Assembly (NCBI GenBank): GCA_003660555.1
Contig: QMUK01000014.1
Span: 1 to 18,783, forward strand
Length of the DNA stretch: 18,783 nt
From: Thermococci archaeon
Lineage (GTDB): Archaea > Hadarchaeota > B88-G9
Reading direction: 5' to 3'
In this document: piece after piece, positions 1-16,639 of the stretch
How the letters are laid out: each line of letters starts with the position of its first letter
Position numbering within the stretch: the first letter of the stretch is position 1
Notes under the pieces: model-generated
Seen by the model: only the letters and a program-made list of their open reading frames with translations
What the model was told of the DNA's origin: nothing
Database searches by the model: none
Position numbers and translations under genes: made by a program

Positions 1-1473
1 AACGCAAACCAAAGTAGTAATTAAATACGTCGGAGAGAGCGATTCAGACTTACGAGGTCTCTCTGTCTCTCTTCCTGCTAGTACTCTCCCTATCAACTTC
101 ATGTATACTATCACGCTCACTGCACTCCCGAAAACTAGAAGAAAGAGAGTGGGGTACTGCTTAGAAATAACTGCTGCCTGTATGAGTATCCATTTTCCTA
201 TGAACATTCCGAATGGTGGTAGAGCCATCGCAATAGCACCGAAGGTTATCATCCATGCTGTAATTGGTCCCTTGGTTATCAGACCGAATAGTTCCTCTAG
301 AGTCTTCGCGTGGAACTCCTTCTCTGATATTCCAGCTTCCAAGAAGAGGAAAGCCTTGGACACAGCATGAAAGACTAAGAGAGTAATGCCAGCAGTTATG
401 GCCAGAGGTGTGCCTATTCCTCCACAAAGTATCATTGCTCCTAGGCTAGCTATTGTGGAATAAGCCAGCAACCTCTTGAATTCTATCTGAGATAAGGCCA
501 TGACCAAGGCGGAAGTGAATGTGAATGCTCCTGCCAAAGCAACAACAGAGCCTAGAGTAGTTCCATCCATTACATCTGAGACCCTAAATACCAAATAGGG
601 ACCTATCTTCACCATAGTGCTTGAGTGTAATAGGGCGCTAACTGGGGTAGGTGCTACCATTGCGCCAAGGAGCCAGCTCTGAAATGGAACTTGGGCACTC
701 TTAACCATGGCTCCTATGACTATCAGAGAAATGGGCAAGAGAGCTCCTGTTTTAATCAACTCCTGGACTAGAATTGTTCCATGGATATAGGCAGAGGAAA
801 TTGCTGAGAGAAGTATTGCTATTCCTCCTATCTGGTTCATCCACAGAGCTAAAAGAGAATTTCTAATGCTCAATTCGTCTCTTCTGTATCCTATCAGATA
901 ATAGGATGTAAATGTCGTGCATTCGTAGAAGAAAAATATCCACTCCAGGTTATCTGAGAAAACTAGGGCATTCATCGCTCCTAGGAAGAGAAATATAACC
1001 GATAGGAATCTATTCTCTCTATTGAGGTCTTCTCCCTCTTCCATATATCTAGTGGAATACACAGCTATTGTCGATCCGACCGTTCCAACTATTAGAGCCA
1101 TTACTGCCGAGAGCCTATCGACTATGAAGTAGGTGCTTTCCGTGTGGAAGTAAGCTACCAAAATACTCAGTAAGACAAGTTGTACCGTGGTCAATGACAC
1201 TATCGTCCTGTGCTTGTAGACGATACCCTCCTTGAGAAAGTAGAATATGAGTGCATAGTCCAAAAGGATGATCAATGAATTTACATTCGGATGTAAACTG
1301 ACTTGAATTGGTGTTTTTAACCAAAGTAGAAACGATAATAGGGCTATCACTCCTCCTCCAATATAAGTGACGATTTTCCTAGCTTTATGGCTAGGAATTG
1401 CTAAGTTTAAAAGGGAGAACAACACAGGGATCAGAACTAGGGATATTGGGATCATTGCTCCGTCATTCATCAT
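1..1473 (-). CDS. Proton-conducting membrane subunit, NuoL/HyfB/EchA family (partial, runs off left edge)
   Basis: The reverse strand is open from an ATG at 1473 to the window edge, giving 491 codons without a stop. The product is a multi-pass membrane protein of the family shared by complex I antiporter subunits and energy-converting (group 4) hydrogenases, which moves H+ or Na+ coupled to a membrane-bound oxidoreductase. Visible signatures are VDRLSAVMAL near residue 120, the TM5-type glutamate in FFYECTTFTSYYLIGY, the lysine in MVKSAQVPFQSWLLGAM, the APTPVSALLHSSTMVKIG block, and the lysine in FHAVSKAFLFLEAG. All the charged residues expected along the proton path are present. A second in-frame ATG at 1470 is equally possible; GGAGG touches the first ATG, so 1470 has the better spacing. 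It is intact, unlike the hydrogenase remnants that diverge from it. Which complex it belongs to cannot be decided because its 3' neighbours lie outside the window. Confidence 0.85.
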   Translation of the reverse strand, partial: MMNDGAMIPISLVLIPVLFSLLNLAIPSHKARKIVTYIGGGVIALLSFLLWLKTPIQVSLHPNVNSLIILLDYALIFYFLKEGIVYKHRTIVSLTTVQLVLLSILVAYFHTESTYFIVDRLSAVMALIVGTVGSTIAVYSTRYMEEGEDLNRENRFLSVIFLFLGAMNALVFSDNLEWIFFFYECTTFTSYYLIGYRRDELSIRNSLLALWMNQIGGIAILLSAISSAYIHGTILVQELIKTGALLPISLIVIGAMVKSAQVPFQSWLLGAMVAPTPVSALLHSSTMVKIGPYLVFRVSDVMDGTTLGSVVALAGAFTFTSALVMALSQIEFKRLLAYSTIASLGAMILCGGIGTPLAITAGITLLVFHAVSKAFLFLEAGISEKEFHAKTLEELFGLITKGPITAWMITFGAIAMALPPFGMFIGKWILIQAAVISKQYPTLFLLVFGSAVSVIVYMKLIGRVLAGRETERPRKSESLSPTYLITTLVCV

Positions 1474-1504
1474 CCTCCACTCCGCCACCCCCTCTCCACA
1501 TCCC

Positions 1505-1514
1505 CTTTAAAATA
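1505..1514 (-). promoter_or_regulatory. Putative TATA box of the antiporter-like gene
   Basis: On the reverse strand the sequence TATTTTAAAGGGG lies about 35 bases upstream of the ATG at 1473. This suits an archaeal TATA box giving a leader of roughly 10 bases. It is a motif reading only. Confidence 0.4.
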
Positions 1515-1611
1515 GTTTGCGTTTTTAGAGAACTGATAGATTGTTAGGCTACCTGCATGAGTCAATGTTGTACGTAGATAAGTGACTTTGTATTCCCAGT
1601 GGAGTTCCACA

Positions 1612-1622
1612 ATTCTTTTATA
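1612..1622 (+). promoter_or_regulatory. Putative TATA box of the dead hydrogenase locus
   Basis: TTCTTTTATAG sits just upstream of the HdrC-like pseudogene, whose reading frame begins at an ATG at 1634. It may be a surviving archaeal promoter, back to back with that of the antiporter-like gene. The spacing to the ATG is a little short for a canonical leaderless start. Confidence 0.3.
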
Positions 1623-1633
1623 GAACGTTCTTA

Positions 1634-2313
1634 ATGCATTAGAGCCCCCTTAAAATCGATGAGGAGTTCCTCGATGAGTTAATTTCCCCCAGTGGGGAAG
1701 GAATAAAGAGATGTTATCAATGCGGCTCTTGTACAGCGACTTGTCCTCTGTCCGAGGATGGAATAATCCCATTGAGAAAGATGATAAAATATTCACGACT
1801 TGGTCTGAAAGAGAAGGTACTAGAGAACCTAACCCCATGGACTTGATATTACTGCGAGGAATGCTCAGATACCTGCCCCAAGGATGTAGATCTAGGAGAA
1901 GTGATGATGGTTCTGAGGAGATACCTAACAACAGAATACGACTGGACTGGAATTTCAAAGAGGATTTATCATTCGAAGAGCTTTGAGGTGATGGCCTCTT
2001 TAGTCTTAGCCCCCTCACACTCGGATTGGTATATCTACTTCATGGACCAGTGGTGACAGAAAAGTTGACCTAGAGGGTCTCAGAACTGTTGAGATAGGGG
2101 GGCATGTAATCTTAGTAGTCCTCAGTGCTCTAGTAATGAGCAACTGTACAGAATGTACAAGTTCACAGTGGGAGACTCAGCGAGGAGGGTACCCCTATCA
2201 AGAAACTCTCTGAGTTCTTTAAGACTGTCCCAGTTCACTTCTTGACCCAATTCGCAGATACACCTGATTCTCGTTCAAAATACGCTTCAGCATTACTATT
2301 TGCTATTTGCTGA
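1634..2313 (+). pseudogene. HdrC-like iron-sulfur membrane protein, broken by stops and frameshifts
   Basis: Following homology across frames gives a protein with two 4Fe-4S motifs, KRCYQCGSCTATCP and then x-YYCEECSDTCPKDVDLG. These are followed by a stretch typical of HdrC-like subunits (YDWTGISKRIYHSKSFE), a hydrophobic segment leading to LLHGPVVTEK, VDLEGLRTVEIGGHVILVVL, YRMYKFTVGDSARRVPL, and KKLSEFFKTVPVHFLTQF. The lesions are a TAG at codon 3 (1640), a TGA at 1844-1846 where the first Cys of the second cluster belongs, and net -1 shifts near 2010 (C run), 2062 (A run), 2145 and 2194. A final TGA at 2311 ends the traceable homology. Such proteins carry electrons between a hydrogenase or reductase and a membrane partner. 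The family assignment comes from motif recognition. The gene cannot make this protein as read. Confidence 0.8.
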
Positions 2314-2356
2314 GACGGACTTTAACGAATGAGATTTACTCCATCACACTAACCCT

Positions 2357-3075
2357 TTGAGAATACTTGGATATTACTCGTCTGTAGCTTTGATATACGT
2401 CAGTCTAGACTGTATAATAGTAGAACACGTAGAGCCGTGGACTTACGTTAAATTTCCTTACCCAAGGGGAGTGGGATGGAATGGATTCACAGACTGTGAG
2501 AAGAGTGGAATATTCAGTGTAGCTCCACTCGCGAGATTAAACGTAGCAGATGGGATGGCCACTCCTAAGGCTCAAGAGGCTTATGAGGAGAGTTGGAAGC
2601 CCTAGGAAAACCAGCTCATCACACATTGGCTAACCACTGGGCTAGAGTAATAGATAATGGTGTATACGGCAGAGAGGATAAAAGAGGTATTAGAAAATCC
2701 AGAATTGACGAGTGAGAAAGTGAGGGAAATACCTACTTCTGTCCCGAGAGAAGGGTTTGGAGTAGTTGAAGCACCAAGAGGGGTTTTGATACATCACTAC
2801 ATTACAGATGAAAGAGGCATAATAAAAAGAGCTAATCTACTCGTTGCCACTCAGCATAACGCAGCTAGAATCTCTCTGTCCATAGACGAAGCAGCGAAGA
2901 GCTTCATCAGGAGAGGTGAAGTGGACGAAGGGATACTAAATATGATAGAGATGGCATTCAGGGCGTATGACCCTTGCTACGCCTGTGCTACGCATTCGCT
3001 TCTAGAAGATACCATTGACAATAGAATTGATGAGCGAAGATGGAGAAAAAAATTGGTGAGCTCACCAGAGGATAG
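2357..3075 (+). pseudogene. [NiFe] hydrogenase large subunit, C-terminal half only, frameshifted
   Basis: The segment contains VEPWTYVKFPYPRGVGW, APLARLNVADGMATPKAQ, KPAHHTLANHWARVID, EAPRGVLIHHYITDE, and the C-terminal nickel-ligand motif DPCYACATH, all diagnostic of [NiFe] hydrogenase catalytic subunits (closest in style to group 3). The N-terminal half with the RxCGxCxxxH nickel motif is absent, and no small subunit is visible. Frames change near 2591 (net -1), 2659 (net +1), about 3028, and in the A run 3046-3052 (+1). After the last shift the text reads IGELTRG and stops at 3073-3075, one base before the ATG of the protease, which looks like the ancestral end. A TGA at 2330 blocks the upstream frame. 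Two surviving open stretches are 2357-2605 and 2657-3100. The 5' limit of homology is uncertain (somewhere between 2313 and 2420). Confidence 0.85.
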
Positions 3076-3076
3076 C

Positions 3077-3507
3077 ATGAAGAGGGTTCTCGTAGTCTAG
3101 CTGGGTAACGAGATAATGGGAGATGACTGCATTGGCCTATCAGCCTCAAGAAAGTTGAGAGATGAATTAGAAGAAGTTGACGTGATAGAATGGCCTTTTT
3201 TTCCAATAAGTTTGATAAACATTGTGGCAGAATACGATGAGGTGTTCATAATAGATAGCTTCGAGAGCGATAAAGCTGGTGAAGTCAGAATCCTAAATCC
3301 AAGTGAAAACTACTCGATCTCAACTCATTACTCGGGAGTGCCTACCCTAATCAGAGTGGTCTCATCCCTAGGGGTGAAGTTCCACGTCATCGGAATCGGT
3401 GTGAGGAACGTGTCCATGGGAGAAGAATGTCAAAAGAGCTGAGAGAGAAGCTAAATGAGATAGTCTCCAGGGTATTGGAAGTAATAAGTAAGAAAAATAG
3501 GCAATAG
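3077..3507 (+). pseudogene. Hydrogenase maturation protease (HyaD/HycI/FrhD family), broken
   Basis: The ancestral start appears to be the ATG at 3077 (MKRVLVV), followed by an in-frame TAG at 3098-3100, then LGNEIMGDDCIGL, the N-terminal signature of the endopeptidase that trims the hydrogenase large-subunit C-terminus after nickel insertion. Further family-like text is VFIIDSFESDKAGEV and FHVIGIGVRNVSMGEE. A net -1 shift near 3427 truncates the frame at 3442. Reading on in the other frame gives MSKELREKLNEIVSRVLEV and a stop at 3505-3507, a normal-looking end. An internal ATG at 3116 leaves a 108-residue open stretch, but it would lack the N-terminal strand and the usual C-terminal helix. 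It sits directly behind its substrate gene, as in intact hydrogenase operons, and its end meets the convergent ligase gene 2 bases away. Confidence 0.8.
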
Positions 3508-3509
3508 TC

Positions 3510-4790
3510 TTATCCTTCCACTATCCTCTTAGCTTTGCCTTCACTCCTAGGTATTTCCCCTGGACTAGCTATTTCCACCTCCACCCTAAGGCCAACTATC
3601 TTTTGTATCTCCTCTTCTATCTCTCTCTTGAGGTCGTCTAGGTTACCCTTGCTGAACCTCTCTGCAGTCGGCTCAACTCTAACCTTTATTTCTGTGAAAG
3701 GTCCCCTCTTATACTTAACTATCTGATAATTCTCACTAGCCCCTCTTACAGAGACTATTGCTTCCTCTATTTGACTGGGGAACACTATGACTCCTTTGAC
3801 CTTCATCATGTCGTCTGCTCTCCCTATTATTCTAGAATGCTTGGGAAAGGTTCTTCCGCATTCGCATTCCTCCATTGAATAGACTAGATCCCTAGTTCTG
3901 AATCTTATTACAGGAAAAGCCTCTTTCGTTAAGCTAGTGAAAACTAGCTCTCCCTTTTCTCCTTCTCCCACTTGTTCTCCAGTTTCAGGATCTATTATTT
4001 CCATCAGGAAGTGGTCCGAATTAACGTGCAAACCGTCTTTTGCCTCGCACTCAAAGGAGACTCCTGGACCTATCACTTCGGTGAGTCCATAGTGATCCCT
4101 AGCGTCTATGTTCCACTTCTCCTCTATCTTCTTTCTAATTTCTTCGCTCCAAGCCTCTGCGCCGAAGAGTCCGACCCTCAAGCTGAAGTCCTCTCCTGGA
4201 TTATAGCCTTCTTTTTCTGCGACCTCTGCCATATATAAGGCATAACTCGGGGTGCAAGCTAGGGCAGTGGTCTCGAAGTCCTTCATTATCTGTATCTGCC
4301 TCTTAGTGTTCCCTGAGCTGGTGGGAATCACCATAGCTCCTATTGCTCTGGCCCCTCTTTCGAATCCGTGAGCCCCCGTGAATAGGCCGTATCCATACGC
4401 GTTTTGTATTCTATCTCCTTTCCTTATACCATCGGCCCATAGGCATCTAGCCATTACCTCGGTCCAAATTTCTAAGTCTCTCTGTGTATATGTTCCAACT
4501 ACAGGTTTTCCTGTGGTACCAGAAGAGGCGTGTATCTCTACTATTTCGTCCATTGGTACCGAAACTAATCCAAAGGGATAATAGTCTCTCAACTCCGCTT
4601 TACTCAGGAAGGGTAATTTCCTAATGTCGTCTAAGCTCTTTACATCTCCTGGTTTTACTCCAGCTTCTTCCATTTTTCTGTGATATATCTCGTTGTTAGA
4701 ATAGGCGTGAGAAATAGTCCATTTCAGTCTCCTCAATTGTAATTTCTCCAATTCTTTTCTGTCCATGCTCTCTTCTTTGCTCCAAAACAT
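3510..4790 (-). CDS. paaK: Phenylacetate-CoA ligase-like AMP-forming enzyme
   Basis: The 426-residue product has the length and motifs of the PaaK branch of adenylate-forming ligases, which join an aryl (often phenylacetic) acid to CoA using ATP. The P-loop SSGTTGKPVVGTYT is at about residues 89-102. The PaaK-type block YGLFTGAHGFERGARAIG is at about 133-150, followed by IPTSSGNTKRQIQIM. The adenine-site motif DHYGLTEVIGPG and the C-terminal hinge region RTRDLVYSMEE...GRADDMMKVKG follow. I chose the ATG at 4790 because AGGTG lies six bases upstream; a GTG at 4799 in frame is the longer alternative. It lies a few tens of bases downstream of acetyl-CoA synthetase on the same strand, so the two are probably co-transcribed. 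The exact acid is not predictable; organisms with 2-oxoacid:ferredoxin oxidoreductases also use such enzymes for aryl acids. Confidence 0.85.
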   Translation of the reverse strand: MFWSKEESMDRKELEKLQLRRLKWTISHAYSNNEIYHRKMEEAGVKPGDVKSLDDIRKLPFLSKAELRDYYPFGLVSVPMDEIVEIHASSGTTGKPVVGTYTQRDLEIWTEVMARCLWADGIRKGDRIQNAYGYGLFTGAHGFERGARAIGAMVIPTSSGNTKRQIQIMKDFETTALACTPSYALYMAEVAEKEGYNPGEDFSLRVGLFGAEAWSEEIRKKIEEKWNIDARDHYGLTEVIGPGVSFECEAKDGLHVNSDHFLMEIIDPETGEQVGEGEKGELVFTSLTKEAFPVIRFRTRDLVYSMEECECGRTFPKHSRIIGRADDMMKVKGVIVFPSQIEEAIVSVRGASENYQIVKYKRGPFTEIKVRVEPTAERFSKGNLDDLKREIEEEIQKIVGLRVEVEIASPGEIPRSEGKAKRIVEG

Positions 4791-15757: not shown

Positions 15758-16639
15758 ATGATGGGGTCACGGATGAAGAAGTACTTAGAGCTAATCAAGA
15801 TTAAACAAACCATTCTCTTAGTTTTCTCGGCAGTATCAAGCTATTTAATCTCTTGTTATGCCAAACCGGATGCCGAAATTATTATTAAACTGATCGGATG
15901 GGCATTCCTCTCTGTATCTGGAACCACTGCCATGAACATGGTGCTAGATAGAGACTTAGATGCCAAAATGTTCAGAACCATGTATAGGCCAATACCAAGA
16001 GGAGACATAAGTACTAAAGATGCTCTGCTGTTTTCAATACCTGTGTTGGTCCTGGGATTGGCCCTAGGATTTTCCATCAATCCAATTGTAGGTACCTCTG
16101 GAATATTGGGCTTCTCGGTGGACATATTCCTATATACTTACCTGCTAAAAAGAAAAAGCGTCCTAAACGTTATTGTCGGTAGTTTCGCTGGAGGATTCCT
16201 CGCTCTCGGTGGATGGAGTGCCCATACTGGATCTCTCGATTTGGAGGGGTTGCTATTCTTCTTGTTGATCTCATCTTGGTCAATACCACACATATGGTCT
16301 CTCTCAATTTATTACAAGGAGGATTATCTGAGAGCAGGAGTACCAATGCTGCCTGTGGAATTGGATGACGTAAGCGCTTCTAAATCTCTCACTATTTCAG
16401 TGCTTGTCCTAGGTGTCGTTACCATATCCATAATGGTAATTGGATTAGCGGGTCCAATCTCTGCTATAATCTCAATCCCTTATCTTTGTCTTTTAATTTG
16501 GAGATGCTTCGTCCTCCAAAATAGCCTTAAGAGAAGTGATTCTCTAATAGTATTCAAGCTTCTCAGTCCGTATTTAGGGATATTCTTGATATCTATGATT
16601 ACGGAGAGAGTCATATGGCCGGAAGTATTTTATTCTTAG
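15758..16639 (+). CDS. ctaB: UbiA-family prenyltransferase, heme O synthase-like (protoheme IX farnesyltransferase)
   Basis: The 293-residue polytopic membrane protein has the first Asp-rich motif of UbiA enzymes, N60xxxD64xxxD68 in AMNMVLDRDLDAKMFRT, followed by YRPIPRG. The second region reads LKRKSVLNVIVGSFAGGF, and later comes HIWSLSIYYKEDYLRAGVPMLPV, which matches the heme O synthase (CtaB/Cox10) branch, not the quinone or lipid branches. It would attach farnesyl (or a longer prenyl) to heme B to make heme O for a heme-copper oxidase. About eight to nine hydrophobic segments are visible. In-frame ATGs at 15758, 15761 and 15773 are all possible; MKKYLELIKIKQTILL from 15773 is the typical family start. 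No oxidase genes lie in the window. A small unknown gene follows 25 bases downstream. Confidence 0.85.
   Translation: MMGSRMKKYLELIKIKQTILLVFSAVSSYLISCYAKPDAEIIIKLIGWAFLSVSGTTAMNMVLDRDLDAKMFRTMYRPIPRGDISTKDALLFSIPVLVLGLALGFSINPIVGTSGILGFSVDIFLYTYLLKRKSVLNVIVGSFAGGFLALGGWSAHTGSLDLEGLLFFLLISSWSIPHIWSLSIYYKEDYLRAGVPMLPVELDDVSASKSLTISVLVLGVVTISIMVIGLAGPISAIISIPYLCLLIWRCFVLQNSLKRSDSLIVFKLLSPYLGIFLISMITERVIWPEVFYS

Follow-up and report, generated by a model that had tools for sequence, protein, structure and literature searches.

Positions 1634-3507 (+) of the window, the 18,783-nucleotide stretch of DNA analysed here, are best read as a pseudogenised operon with an ancestor of the Mvh-Qmo-Hdr type (probability about 0.9). 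Proteins of intact relatives were aligned to positions 1500-3600 with a protein-to-DNA aligner that tolerates frameshifts, and shuffled DNA served as the null. Three genes were recovered in order, encoding a QmoC-like protein, a hydrogenase large subunit and a maturation protease (Table 1). An earlier note had described a dead hydrogenase locus, readable across frames, with similarity to hydrogenase and HdrC families; the alignment found this homology across the joined frames, far above the level of shuffled DNA, and each of the remaining genes is broken. The operon from which it derives is of a known kind, and the location of this pseudogene alone is new. No archaeal hydrogenase pseudogene in a metagenome-assembled genome (MAG) turned up in a literature search.

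Table 1. Coordinates of the remnant, its principal lesions and the adjoining gene in the window.
Feature	Position	Strand	Remarks
Antiporter-like subunit (Nuo/Mrp/hydrogenase-4 type)	1-1488	-	cut by contig end
QmoC-like remnant	1634-2404	+	residues ~1-280 of ~383; 3' end deleted
In-frame TGA	1844-1846	+	replaces first Cys of the ferredoxin-domain 4Fe-4S motif
Cluster of ~7 frameshifts, membrane domain	2008-2360	+	~2012, 2059, 2145, 2201, 2279, 2305, 2348; mostly net -1
Deletion junction	2399-2410	+	QmoC residue ~280 joined to large-subunit residue ~268
Hydrogenase large-subunit remnant, Mvh/group-3c type	2405-3076	+	C-terminal half only
Maturation protease remnant	3077-3507	+	ATG 3077, TAG 3098 (codon 8), shift ~3425, stop TAG 3505-3507

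The source genome is an archaeal metagenome assembly of 1.295 Mb (150 contigs, 91% complete) and the sole genome of its family in the comparison set, in which the phylum is represented by 28 genomes. The remnant sits between the antiporter gene and a gene for a PaaK-like ligase, and the genes flanking it are open. Further open genes on the contig encode an acetyl-CoA synthetase, a CCA-adding enzyme, an HMG-CoA synthase-like protein, a thiolase and a formate-THF ligase. The antiporter-like subunit adjoins the dead operon and could be part of a group-4 or complex I-like cluster. A UbiA-family gene at 15758-16639 (+) scored above the NCBIfam cut-off for haem O synthase (TIGR01473; 221 bits against 210.3). 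Neither tRNA genes nor Rfam families were found in the window.

Gene remnants and their lesions

The first gene combines an HdrC-type 2x[4Fe-4S] domain with a cytochrome-b-like membrane domain, and the alignment spans both across the shifts. The previous assignment as HdrC-like is correct for the first domain; the gene as a whole is QmoC-like, with a membrane domain, and not a plain HdrC. Compared with the intact protein of Ca. Geocrenenecus huangii (locus L059), 127 of 272 positions were identical (score 550). The alignment score of 545 contrasts with a maximum of 50 in shuffled DNA, and the membrane part alone scored 214 against a maximum of 45. The joined reading of the window matches itself and is not independent; independent support for the QmoC-like assignment comes from the intact proteins. 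In NCBIfam the joined reading matched qmoC with E=1.9e-21 (77 bits, below the curated cut-off of 300 bits; NF038018). Since the intact L059 protein itself also stays below this cut-off (202 bits, E=1.6e-59), only the name QmoC-like is used here. A reading as plain HdrC followed by remnants of HdrB, MvhD or a small subunit was rejected, as the proteins of locus L036 scored 36 to 46, about the shuffled-DNA level seen with other queries.

At the TGA at 1844 the remnant reads PWT*YYCEEC where relatives have PW-L-C-YYCGEC. Whether TAG 1640 is an in-frame stop depends on ATG 1634 being the native start. Apart from the shifts listed in Table 1, two ambiguous ones were placed at 1645 and 2255, and about 10 codons are deleted near 2260.

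The large-subunit remnant keeps the second Ni-ligand motif, DPCYACATH (DPCxxCxxH). Residues 1 to about 268 are absent, including the N-terminal motif RxCGxCxxxH that is found in the L059 protein; RxCGxC supplies half of the Ni ligands. Shifts at 2591 (-1) and 2657 (+1) cancel each other and are followed by two more at about 3005 and 3046. Between 2657 and 3100 the frame is open for 147 aa and matches Pfam PF00374 above cut-off (E=1.8e-7). Automatic annotation of this frame as a hydrogenase large subunit would nevertheless be wrong: the remnant is a pseudogene of the family and not a working member. The protease remnant aligned to the proteases of L059 and of an Archaeoglobaceae genome (L063) with scores of 143 to 161 (159 against a shuffled-DNA maximum of 41). 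It matched the Pfam family HycI (HycI/HyaD type) over 3116-3442 with E=1.8e-5, in a frame that is not open.

The frameshift positions given in the earlier note (2010, 2062, 2145, 2194, 2591, 2659, 3046-3052 and 3427) agree with the aligned shifts within a few bases, and the shifts in its HdrC-like gene are indeed mostly net -1. Its count of about nine shifts was too low, at least 12 being found, and its count of about four in-frame stops too high, with two firm stops and one that depends on the start. The nearly clean state of the neighbouring genes was seen again in the long open reading frames (ORFs) of the contig.

Continued partial function, in which the large-subunit tail or the protease is made as a short protein or the lesions are bypassed by recoding (frameshifting, or selenocysteine at TGA 1844), might be argued from the open 147-aa frame and its mostly kept conserved residues. 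We regard it as having almost no chance of being correct: the large subunit is without its N-terminal half and the RxCGxC motif, no small subunit is encoded, the protease frame is interrupted at codon 8 by a stop and close to the end by a shift, and recoding would have to overcome every one of a dozen shifts. Because this locus lacks every flavin subunit, the small subunit and the N-terminal Ni-ligand motif, it cannot give rise to a functional hydrogenase.

Deletion junction and comparison with intact operons

The largest lesion, overlooked in the earlier note, is the junction at 2399-2410. Intact operons were located by scanning named genomes. In L059 the order is QmoC (383 aa), HdrA-like (432), HdrA-like (649), MvhD (139), small subunit (326), large subunit (497) and protease (158), and the operons L060, L062, L063 and L077 are similar as far as their contigs extend. 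The window has the first of these genes fused to the sixth. Scaled on the L059 operon, about 5.8 kb is missing: the QmoC-like gene has lost its 3' end, the large subunit its N-terminal half, and the genes for MvhD, the small subunit and two HdrA/Qmo-type flavoproteins are gone. The normal operon order that had been claimed is true for the ends of the operon, whereas its interior genes are gone. MvhD, the small subunit and the HdrA/Qmo flavoproteins that mark the Mvh-Qmo-Hdr cluster are not beside QmoC and MvhA in the window: alignment detected no remnant there of MvhD or of the small subunit, and the aligned pieces lie too close together to leave room for the two flavoprotein genes.

The published Mvh-Qmo-Hdr cluster of Ca. 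Methanoglobus hypatiae / nevadensis consists of MvhAGD, two HdrA copies and a QmoC fused to HdrC, and has been hypothesised to link the oxidation of H2 with menaquinone and ferredoxin (PMC10945360). In published gene content it matches the intact relatives of the window locus. Relative to this cluster the window retains the QmoC-HdrC front and the MvhA tail, but the copy is dead and lacks the two HdrA-like genes, MvhD and the small subunit. Operons of Ca. Geocrenenecus huangii (L059) and of Archaeoglobaceae/Archaeoglobales (L063, L077) have the end genes and their order in common with the window; they are intact and have other neighbouring genes. The Hdr-Mvh operon of Ca. Scotarchaeum otlingeri (L058), which carries the large subunit closest to the remnant, differs in having separate HdrC and HdrB in place of the QmoC-like membrane subunit. 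A related hydrogenase, Mvh:Hdl, is present in Archaeoglobus fulgidus (PMC3949148). In the methanogen HdrABC-MvhAGD complex (PDB 5odc), MvhA is similar to the L059 large subunit (E=1e-112) and HdrC to the N-terminus of the L059 QmoC-like protein (E=6.8e-11); that complex is soluble, with HdrB and without a membrane subunit.

From the intact operons of other phyla we infer an ancestor that would have encoded a QmoC-like membrane subunit, two HdrA/Qmo-type flavoproteins, MvhD, the small and large subunits and the maturation protease. In its intact form, H2 would have been oxidised at the [NiFe] site and the electrons passed via the flavoproteins to menaquinone and perhaps ferredoxin, as in the published hypothesis. 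One or more deletions, about 5.8 kb in total, would then have joined the 5' part of qmoC to the 3' half of the gene for the large subunit, and the sequence left behind would have gathered stops and small indels. The gene content and the order of events in this scheme are both reconstructed.

An assembly artefact, i.e. an intact operon mis-assembled so that deletion and indels are false, deserves consideration given the fragmented state of the MAG and the location of some shifts at CCCCC or A runs. Sequencing errors may account for a few of the shifts in C or A runs, and the junction could be an assembly chimera, yet independent lesions lie on both sides of it. The lesions all fall within 1.87 kb; elsewhere on the contig, and in three further stretches of the genome (L033, L034, L035), the long ORFs are open. 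Stops 1844 and 3098 and shifts 2145, 2305, 2591 and 2657 lie outside long runs, several shifts of the remnant are outside any run, and 32 homopolymer runs of at least 5 are harmless in 13.2 kb of open neighbouring ORFs. No second QmoC copy was found in the genome, and the GC content of the remnant (0.437) equals that of its flanks (0.434). An artefact as the source of the lesions is therefore very improbable, and decay of a real operon is the preferred explanation.

Origin and age of the remnant

The nearest intact large subunits are 67-77% identical to the remnant. Over 194 aligned columns, identity was 77% to Ca. Scotarchaeum otlingeri, 73% to Geocrenenecus (L059), and 71% to the large subunits of a Geoarchaeota MAG and an Archaeoglobaceae MAG (L063). 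Same-phylum copies reached about 61% at best. In a tree that is rough, with a short fragment and unsettled bootstrap values, the remnant fell within a nine-member archaeal group (support 98/90), apart from the same-phylum copies. With the intact QmoC-like protein as query, no QmoC-like protein was found elsewhere in the 28 genomes of the phylum, where matches outside the window were confined to HdrC domains of at most 35% identity.

On these sequence comparisons lateral gain followed by loss fits best and is likely; differential loss of an older copy is a possible alternative. The more specific proposal, that a lineage outside the known carriers received an H2:quinone (Mvh-Qmo) electron-transfer operon from thermophilic archaea by lateral transfer and later lost it, is put forward tentatively, at somewhat less than even odds. 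If this gain and loss are real, the cluster is a dispensable module that passes from one archaeal phylum to another. The remnant widens the past range of the Mvh-Qmo-Hdr cluster to a phylum in whose 28 genomes no intact copy was found, and as a fossil it offers a means of tracing how H2-quinone coupling was gained and lost. In another genome of the phylum (L030; G020:C95) the large subunit groups with bacterial copies and not with its own phylum, which suggests repeated lateral movement of this hydrogenase.

The view that the loss is recent was upheld in part. Motifs are mostly preserved, with 3 of 49 near-invariant large-subunit positions changed (median 0 in 94 intact copies). Against this stand a dozen shifts, a multi-gene deletion and a long end branch (0.50 against 0.12 for the nearest relative, about fourfold). 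The remnant appears to have evolved unconstrained for a while, though too briefly to blur its motifs.

Hydrogen metabolism of the organism

A recent change of energy metabolism, as had been suggested, is not supported, because other hydrogenase gene sets remain. The genome retains a complete Hdr-Mvh set in the order HdrA-MvhD-small-large-protease-HdrC-HdrB (L033), a group-4-type hydrogenase with both Cys motifs (L034), a complex I-like cluster (L035) and HypD. A switch away from, for example, H2- and quinone-linked electron transfer would be compatible with the pseudogene reading. It could draw on three observations: (i) it is the membrane, quinone-linked hydrogenase in particular that was lost; (ii) no QmoC-like protein is left in the genome; (iii) the contig also carries a haem O synthase-like gene. 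In view of the retained gene sets, and of the failure to find a haem-copper oxidase in the genome or the phylum, such a switch is unlikely. The loss concerns a single H2-to-quinone branch rather than hydrogen metabolism.

McrA, COX1 and MqnA/D were examined and yielded no metabolic reason for the loss. An aerobic switch, considered on account of the haem O synthase-like gene, was rejected as no COX1 was found in the 28 genomes of the phylum. Loss of menaquinone was likewise set aside: MqnA/D are absent phylum-wide, but most carriers of the intact operon, including those in Caldarchaeales, lack them too, so that their absence is uninformative. Loss of methanogenesis was dismissed, McrA occurring only in three genomes of another family and not in this genome. 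The operon was probably lost through redundancy with the other hydrogenases or because a quinone-linked electron sink disappeared, a reason that we again infer. The Mvh-type large subunit retained in L033 (7742-9163; G000:C1) has a first motif AICGFCSWAH, with AICGFC in place of RxCGxC and the cysteines present; its tree branch is very long (1.94), though the gene lies in the complete Hdr-Mvh set.
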